A stretch of DNA of 64,000 bases from Candidatus Aldehydirespirator catecholifindens. GTDB lineage: Bacteria > Actinomycetota > Acidimicrobiia > Acidimicrobiales > Aldehydirespiratoraceae. The position numbers and the translations under genes were made by a program. The notes below the pieces were generated by a model. The model saw nothing but the letters and a program-made list of their open reading frames with translations, was not told where the DNA came from and did not search any database. Positions 10,237 through 64,000 of the stretch are shown piece after piece; the stretch's first letter is position 1, and each line of letters begins with the position of its first letter. Location of the stretch: positions 1 to 64,000 of the forward strand of contig JAPYNU010000074.1 of the NCBI GenBank assembly GCA_028283245.1, read 5' to 3'.

Positions 10237-11472
10237 ATGAGCGCTGTCGCCAAACGCGATGTGGCAATAATAGGTGCCGGACCAGCGGGGGCCGCCACCG
10301 CTATCAAAGCTGCCGCAGGAGGGGCAAAAGTCACCGTTTTTGAGAAAGCACCCCCCGGACGCGACAAGGTCTGTGGCGACGCGCTAACCCCTCGAGCGGT
10401 GACAGCCTTGGCCGAACTCGGGATTGCTCTTGACGAGTCGCATCACATAGCCGGACTGCGAATGATCGCGGGTTCCAGACGGCGAGAACTGCTTTGGCCC
10501 GACGGCAACAGGTTCGGATCGGCTGGCGCGGTTTGGCCGCGTCGTGCGCTTGACCATCACCTAATAAAAGCAGCAGAAAACGCTGGCGCCAAGATCCTGT
10601 GGAACACCGAAGTGCTGCCAACCATCTCAGATGACGGCAGCGTCGTCGGCGTGGAGCAAGCCGACGGAAGCAGCCGCTGGAAAGCTGAACTAGTAGTGCT
10701 CGCTGCGGGCGCACCCGGCGCAGCAGCCCGAATGCTAGGAGCAGAACGGATCGGCAAAGAGCCATACGGCATCGCCATAAGAACATATGCGCCCAGCCCA
10801 CGACACGCAGAGCATCTCCTAGAGGCTTGCCTTACCCTGCGCGGTGCTGACGGTAGTTGGGTGCCTGGATATGGCTGGCTGTTCCCTGCTGGTGACGGCA
10901 CTGTCAACATCGGCGCAGGTGTCGCATCCACAATGAAAGGCTTCAAAAGTCTCAACCTCAACCGTCTGTTGAACGACTATCGCGACATGTTCGCCCAAGA
11001 ATGGGAACTCGGCGACTACCTAGAACGCCCTCGGGCTTGGCGTCTGCCTATGAGCACCGCAAAACGCTACGGCGCAGGCTGGGCTGCAGTAGGTGACGCC
11101 GCAGGGCTAATCAACCCAATGAACGGTGAAGGCATCGACTACGGCCTTGAGTCGGGGATGCTGCTAGCCGAAAAGTTTCTGACTGATCCGGGCAGTGCTG
11201 CAAGCAGTTACGACCAGATAATCGGTGAACGTTTCGACAGCTTCTTAACCACTGGCAGGCGCTTCTGTTTTTTGATAGGGCATCCCTGGGTGCTGCGAAA
11301 CGGTCTGCGCTTGACCATGGCATCAGACAGCATCGCCAACATCACGCTGCAAGTGATGGGCAACCTGATAGACAGCGAAACTGAAGGCATGTCAGCGTTG
11401 GTGCTGCGGGCTACTGACCGCACCCTGAAGCTCGCCGATCCACTGCTGCGACGAACCCGCTCCGCTGCATGA
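10237..11472 (+). CDS. Geranylgeranyl reductase family flavoprotein
   Basis: FAD-dependent oxidoreductase, 411 residues, of the family that saturates isoprenoid chains (menaquinone side chain, archaeal-type or chlorophyll-type lipids). The Rossmann motif GAGPAGAA is at 13-20. It is followed by the family motif KVCGDALTPRAV, the VPGYGWLFP segment and the second FAD motif GDAAGLINPMNGEGI near 287-301. In actinobacteria such enzymes often act as menaquinone reductases, which is the likeliest role here. It stands between a metal ABC ATPase and ppc without clear functional linkage. Confidence 0.85.
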   Translation: MSAVAKRDVAIIGAGPAGAATAIKAAAGGAKVTVFEKAPPGRDKVCGDALTPRAVTALAELGIALDESHHIAGLRMIAGSRRRELLWPDGNRFGSAGAVWPRRALDHHLIKAAENAGAKILWNTEVLPTISDDGSVVGVEQADGSSRWKAELVVLAAGAPGAAARMLGAERIGKEPYGIAIRTYAPSPRHAEHLLEACLTLRGADGSWVPGYGWLFPAGDGTVNIGAGVASTMKGFKSLNLNRLLNDYRDMFAQEWELGDYLERPRAWRLPMSTAKRYGAGWAAVGDAAGLINPMNGEGIDYGLESGMLLAEKFLTDPGSAASSYDQIIGERFDSFLTTGRRFCFLIGHPWVLRNGLRLTMASDSIANITLQVMGNLIDSETEGMSALVLRATDRTLKLADPLLRRTRSAA

Positions 11473-63329: not shown

Positions 63330-63340
63330 AAAGGGGGTGA
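63330..63340 (+). promoter_or_regulatory. Strong Shine-Dalgarno deciding the selD start
   Basis: AAAGGGGGTGA differs from the ideal AAAGGAGGTGA at one position and ends 5 nt before the TTG at 63346. The GTG at 63337 lies inside it and so is an unlikely start. Confidence 0.8.
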
Positions 63341-63345
63341 CCACA

Positions 63346-64000
63346 TTGGCTAGAAGGCTTACCGAGTTCAGCCACGGCGCTGGTTGAGGCTGCAAGATCG
63401 CCGCTGGTGATCTCGCGCACGTTGTGCGTGGCCTGACCCCCGATCCCCCGCCGGAGCTTCTGGTTGGCTTAGCAACCTCTGATGATGCTGCGGTCTGGCA
63501 GATCGCGCCCCGACGAGCCCTAGTGGTGACCGCCGACTTCATTACGCCTGTGGTTGACGACGCTCGCCTATGGGGCCAGATAGCGGCCACCAACGCCGTG
63601 TCCGATGTCTACGCCATGGGAGGACGACCGCTTCTGGCTTTGAATCTTGTGGCCTGGAACTCCGAGGAACTACCCAACGAACTGCTCGCTGAGGTGCTCG
63701 CTGGAGGCGAAGACGCGGCTCGTGGCTGCGGTTTCGTGGTGGGTGGCGGTCACACGGTGGATGATCCCGAGCCGAAATACGGGATGGCTGTAGTAGGCGA
63801 AGTTGATCCCAAACGCATGCTCACCAACACGGGGTTGCGGCCCGGCAACGCGCTGGTGCTCACCAAGCCGTTGGGTTCGGGTGTGATCTCAACTGCTGTC
63901 AAACGCGGTAAGGCACCCGACACAACAGTGAAGCGAGCCGTGCGCGAAATGATCCGATCTAACGAGAGAGCTGCTGCTGTCGGGCTGCGCCATGGTGCCA
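63346..64000 (+). CDS. selD: Selenide, water dikinase with in-frame TGA (selenocysteine), partial
   Basis: Makes selenophosphate from selenide and ATP. The frame from TTG 63346 reads ARRLTEFSHGAG, then TGA (63385-63387, codon 14), then GCKIAAGDL. In SelD the motif is GAG(C/U)GCK, and the first residue is Cys17 in Escherichia coli; here it is encoded by TGA and so most likely selenocysteine. Catalytic Lys17 (E. coli Lys20) follows. After the TGA the frame is open to the window end with SelD motifs: TSDDAAVWQI, ADFITPVVDD, ATNAVSDVYAMGG, VGGGHTVDD, LTKPLGSGVISTAVKRG. About 218 codons are present; the C-terminus lies beyond the window. A SECIS-like hairpin follows the TGA. Confidence 0.93.
63395..63413 (+). 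promoter_or_regulatory. Bacterial SECIS-like hairpin after the selD UGA
   Basis: AGATCGCC (63395-63402) pairs with GGTGATCT (63406-63413) over eight pairs with one G-U, closing a GCU loop. The loop starts 16 nt after the UGA and begins with G, as expected for SelB-recognised bacterial SECIS. A second small hairpin (63415-63429, GCGCAC/GTGCGT) follows. Confidence 0.7.

Follow-up and report, generated by a model that had tools for sequence, protein, structure and literature searches.

The gene at the 3' end of a 64,000-nucleotide stretch of contig JAPYNU010000074.1 (positions 1 to 64,000 of the forward strand; hereafter, the window) from Candidatus Aldehydirespirator catecholifindens, a member of the Acidimicrobiales, is almost certainly selD, which encodes a predicted selenophosphate synthetase and is itself a selenoprotein gene. 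As judged from sequence, the catalytic selenocysteine (Sec) of this enzyme would be encoded by an in-frame UGA codon and inserted with the aid of a Sec insertion sequence (SECIS), most likely the second of two hairpins, H1 and H2, which directly abut one another 3' of the UGA.

The selD gene and its in-frame TGA codon

The selD coding region starts on the plus strand with TTG at 63346, occupies the window up to its last position (63346..64000) and continues past the window edge to a TAG stop codon at 64384-64386 of the full contig (C77), giving a protein of 346 amino acids. The window therefore ends inside the gene, with 204 codons open between the in-frame TGA and the edge, in agreement with the roughly 200 codons reported in a preliminary description of this locus. 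The NCBIfam profile for SelD (TIGR00476), which has a curated cut-off of 125 bits, was matched at 259 bits by the part in the window and at 356 bits by the whole gene with its single internal TGA, and both scores place the product in the family. We prefer TTG 63346 to an alternative in-frame GTG upstream of it at 63337 (plus strand), because relatives show ATG at the same codon and because a putative ribosome-binding site, read directly from the sequence as GGGGG (63333..63337, plus strand), lies 8 nt before it.

The TGA at 63385..63387 (plus strand) falls exactly at the catalytic Cys/Sec position, as first described, in the glycine-rich N-terminal loop SHGAG-U-GCK, and corresponds to the catalytic Cys17 of the E. 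coli enzyme. The loop shows the arrangement characteristic of SelD proteins, a catalytic Cys or Sec with GCK or ACK after it. When TGA is translated as Sec from either GTG 63337 or TTG 63346, the product reads ...RRLTEFSHGAG-U-GCKIAAGDLAHVVRG... Homologues with Cys at this position (Cys-SelDs) have TGC or TGT at the codon matching the TGA of the window, which is the alignment of UGA with Cys expected of a bacterial selenoprotein. Under the standard code, the ORF finder yields just a 320-amino-acid ORF from GTG 63424, which is N-terminally truncated and devoid of the catalytic loop, so that the truncation by gene callers foreseen in the preliminary description does occur.

A SelD match above the family cut-off was found in 89 of 119 related genomes. 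Within the family to which the host belongs, every above-cut-off SelD listed has exactly one internal TGA, and the TGA type also predominates among full-length SelDs of the order as a whole, a minority of which lack any internal stop. The TGA recurs at the same codon in dozens of related genomes, including those of other families within the order, and the nearest named relatives, all uncultured Acidimicrobiales, are 78-81% identical. Since the TGA is kept across relatives, it is attributable neither to a sequencing error nor to a decaying gene. SelDs with an in-frame UGA (UGA-SelDs) are also common elsewhere in the phylum, and the actinobacterial context of the gene is thus not unusual.

Two abutting hairpins downstream of the UGA codon

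The published model of the bacterial SECIS (bSECIS) is a single stem-loop with a loop of 3-9 nt, a stem of 4-16 bp, a distance of 16-37 nt from the UGA, a minimum free energy of at most -7.5 kcal/mol and a G at the first or second position of the loop, with G or U as the usual next base (PMC13188914). H2 (63414..63430, plus strand) lies within every one of these limits: it has a stem of 7 bp (8 bp if delimited as 63413-63431), a GUU loop at 63421-63423 (CGUUG) that starts 33 nt after the UGA, and a folding energy of -10.1 kcal/mol. H1 (63395..63413, plus strand) has a stem of 8 bp and a GCU loop at 63403-63405 but begins at the 16th base after the UGA, leaving 15 intervening nucleotides, one short of the range, and its loop opens with GC instead of GG or GU. 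The loop of H1 is not conserved, being CC in most relatives (60/62 and 17/21 in two sets of UGA-SelDs), and a G there is almost confined to the window. In contrast, the H2 loop has GU in all 83 UGA-SelD sequences of this type; many relatives carry GGUC where the window has GUU/CGUUG. H2 was not present in 45 Cys-SelD sequences. When both strands of the entire window were scanned for TGA codons that are open for 20 codons before and 70 after, and are then followed by a stable GU-loop hairpin, this TGA with H2 was the single match. The SECIS-like 8-bp hairpin of the preliminary description corresponds to H1 and does exist; however, its G-initial loop is not kept in relatives, and the abutting H2, the better SECIS, had been missed.

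Structural selection was evaluated in the two UGA-SelD sets (n=62 and n=21) against a null of synonymous recoding of the same peptides. On average, 6.40 and 6.90 of the seven H2 pairs were formed, compared with 3.97 and 4.28 expected, and 6.84 and 6.86 of the eight H1 pairs, compared with 5.5 and 5.3 expected. In Cys-SelDs, H1 showed no excess (5.04 pairs vs 5.07 expected) and H2 almost none (3.09 vs 2.76). Folding energies followed the same pattern, with mean z-scores in UGA-SelDs of -3.5 for H2 and -1.6 for H1, and in Cys-SelDs of -0.25 and +0.37, respectively. The alignment of 82 UGA-SelDs contained 99 cells in which both sides of a pair had changed, a count reached in none of 500 shufflings (36.8 +/- 4.2) and exceeding all slid controls (10-27 cells); in 43 Cys-SelDs, the count did not differ from shuffled alignments (34 vs 34.3). 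For instance, column 33 of H2, the silent third base of an Ala codon, pairs in 80/82 sequences, as GC, UA, CG or UG, with column 43, the amino-acid-changing first base of an R/S/G codon ten columns downstream. Such tracking of amino-acid-changing positions by silent third positions cleanly illustrates how a coding sequence is constrained by RNA structure. Structural selection acts on H1 too, but less strongly than on H2.

Fold, covariation and the synonymous null bear on both hairpins, and H2 in addition has no counterpart in Cys-SelDs; on these grounds H2 is most likely the better SECIS and the putative SelB-binding hairpin. It is unlikely that H1 is the SelB-binding SECIS instead. Its loop in the window does begin with G, and its pairs covary and are commoner in UGA-SelDs than in Cys-SelDs. 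Moreover, some other actinobacterial SelDs (L184, L204 and L213) lack H2 but fold a GUC-loop hairpin where H1 would lie, which indicates that the position of the SECIS is not fixed across the phylum. However, quite apart from its short spacing and its loop C, which depart from the bSECIS model (PMC13188914), H1 gives a weaker signal against the synonymous null (median p 0.23 vs 0.018 for H2), and one of its pairs is broken in 37/82 sequences. The near-private loop G together with this weaker signal led us to demote H1 as a SECIS. Altogether nine TGA-containing matches of other types lack H2, one of which (L145:3299) is a spurious non-SelD frame; L184, L204 and L213 are among the genuine ones. 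A three-way junction closed by a helix between GCUGCA and UGCAG beyond H2 was also considered; it folds in a few relatives (L152, L200 and L202) but was rejected, as its 3' side is missing from the window.

Several observations weigh against UGA-encoded Sec inserted through H2. The sequences used for covariation are related and do not represent independent events, which inflates the counts, although the Cys-SelD control likewise consists of related sequences, yet has no covariation signal; most of these controls are also phylogenetically more distant. In the window itself, H1 with its GCU loop satisfies most bSECIS rules and might, in this single genome, be the hairpin that SelB binds. Finally, the host genome is a draft of 104 contigs at 93% completeness.

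Selenocysteine machinery and other UGA-containing genes of the host

The 2.59-Mb host genome contains selA (372 bits), selB (298 bits) and tRNA-Sec with anticodon TCA (68 bits), and the selB product includes the C-terminal SelB winged helix (SelB-wing_3, PF09107). The full Sec system that the preliminary description expected elsewhere in the genome was therefore recovered; absence of selB or of tRNA-Sec, named there as decisive against its reading, does not apply, both being present. The selenoproteome was sampled by family searches and has at least six members, namely SelD and at least five other genes with UGA at known redox-Cys sites. A UGA-containing formate dehydrogenase, suggested in advance as a gene to look for, was found (FdhA, NRT-U-HAPSVVG). 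Four further candidates, located at L227 (1600), L232 (1615), L234 (minus strand) and L236 (51), comprise two TlpA/AhpC-like genes (WASW-U-GC and APH-U-PTC), an AhpD-like gene (CHY-U-TVHH) and a DsbA-like gene (PL-U-PWC). With UGA at redox sites in these several genes, the Sec pathway evidently serves more than SelD.

SECIS-like hairpins with a GGUCU loop at +18 to +20 were detected in FdhA, where the loop lies at +18, and in the AhpD-like and WASW-U-GC TlpA-like genes. GGUCU is also the loop of the E. coli fdhF SECIS. The energy of the best hairpin was not significant against the synonymous null for FdhA (p 0.30), the TlpA-like gene (0.15) or the second AhpC/TlpA-like gene (0.17); for SelD it was 0.035. 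Since the energy test is not significant for these three genes singly, their SECIS assignments rest on loop, position and residue.

This genomic context also bears on the two readings in which the TGA of selD does not encode Sec. It is very improbable that the TGA is a true stop or a sequencing error, leaving a pseudogene or a truncated SelD restarting at GTG 63424. Standard-code calling does offer the 320-amino-acid ORF at that codon, but a product restarted there would be without the catalytic residue, the TGA recurs at the same codon in SelDs of the host's family and of others in the order, SECIS-type selection is confined to TGA forms, and the Sec machinery is complete. Reading of the UGA as Trp, Cys or another amino acid under a reassigned code is scarcely credible: the frame is open downstream of the UGA, but translation table 11 leaves the neighbouring HIT, pgsA-type and katG-type genes open, the genome has tRNA-Sec, selA and selB, and the UGAs detected in its redox genes sit at catalytic redox positions. 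Conservation in relatives and the complete Sec machinery thus led us to rule out pseudogene, sequencing error and code reassignment.

The selA and selB genes are grouped, with an ORF of the metallo-beta-lactamase fold in between (L018 6980-8368; weak PF13483 match), which overlaps the end of selA by 4 nt; an XDH-like gene lies nearby (L018 3-1535). The tRNA-Sec gene adjoins yqeC (TIGR03172, selenium cofactor biosynthesis) head to head (L019 6957-7052 and 7229-8050), which may point to Se-dependent molybdenum hydroxylases as a further selenium trait. In the window, an Rfam search gave no match and ARAGORN found no tRNA. Three related genomes (G011, G020 and G023) have selA and UGA-fdhA and no SelD match. 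We considered them as selD-less Sec users and rejected this assignment, as assembly gaps in these 93-96% complete genomes explain the pattern equally well and are probably its cause.

The UGA-containing formate dehydrogenase of the host is split. Its Sec-bearing catalytic part forms one gene (G000:C8, L143 5228-7306), and the iron-sulphur part from the N-terminus (CSYCGVGC...GRFGWxYVHG) stands at the end of a different gene further downstream (ORF ending at 10356). The same split was observed in another genome (G018, L221), and nearly all UGA-FdhA matches across the order begin at profile position 40-52, suggesting that the split is general in the order.

Proposed mechanism and comparison with known systems

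A SECIS acts by binding SelB, which brings Sec-tRNA(Sec) to the UGA upstream. In selD, this role would most likely fall to H2, which lies within the coding sequence and would recruit SelB carrying Sec-tRNA(Sec) by presenting the invariant G-U of its loop, and UGA 63385-63387 would be decoded at codon 14 as the catalytic Sec rather than as a stop. Situated between the UGA and H2, H1 probably serves as a spacer that brings H2 near the decoding site, or as a read-through helper. The former role is suggested by the distance from the UGA to the H2 loop, which without the 19 nt of H1 amounts to 14 nt, close to the 18-20 nt found for the SECIS elements of the fdhA, ahpD-like and tlpA-like genes in this genome. 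Because SelD makes the selenium donor needed for more SelD, its expression may depend on selenium supply by feedback. More generally, we tentatively propose, as a possibility short of an even chance, that actinobacterial selD mRNAs use a two-hairpin SECIS, in which H1, lacking a SelB-type loop, and H2, the true SelB-binding hairpin, would act as one unit, with H1 shortening the effective distance or tuning read-through.

SelD ranks second in breadth of distribution among the selenoprotein families of prokaryotes (PMC13188914), and Sec is encoded by 19% of the SelD genes in a reference set (PMC4561486). Sec-containing SelD (Sec-SelD) is known in other bacteria, as the preliminary description states. 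Among Actinobacteria, a 2006 survey recorded it in Rubrobacter and in Symbiobacterium as then classified (PMC1794560); these resemble the host in having Sec-SelD in a multi-selenoprotein genome but belong to other lineages, and Acidimicrobiia are unmentioned in that survey. In most genome bins of sponge symbionts, selA and selB have been noted to co-occur (PMC5649159). No description of Sec-SelD in Acidimicrobiia or of a tandem-hairpin SECIS was found in a limited search of the open-access literature.

Known Sec-SelDs and that of the window are alike in the UGA at the catalytic position, the bSECIS within the coding sequence and membership in TIGR00476. They differ in that the host here is an uncultured member of the Acidimicrobiales and its SECIS is preceded by a second, abutting conserved hairpin. 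The E. coli fdhF SECIS shares with H2 a small loop with a G-U contact, and its loop sequence recurs in fdhA of the host itself; in selD, however, the loop is GUU/CGUUG and starts 33 nt past the UGA, from which it is separated by H1. The feature is thus ordinary in kind, the tandem-hairpin SECIS being its sole modestly unusual part and a variant, open to testing, of the bSECIS model with its single stem-loop. Since the SelD obtained by standard gene calling lacks the catalytic residue, the present annotation also rescues an essential step of selenium metabolism mis-annotated in an uncultured Acidimicrobiales lineage, and it marks the host as a multi-selenoprotein actinobacterium.

Outside Actinomycetota, the tandem hairpin was sampled at one locus, a contig labelled as deltaproteobacterial (L113 5031-5087), whose SelD is 52% identical to that of the window and has the same tandem hairpins, which may be due to horizontal transfer, a wrong label on the contig or an old structure common to both.
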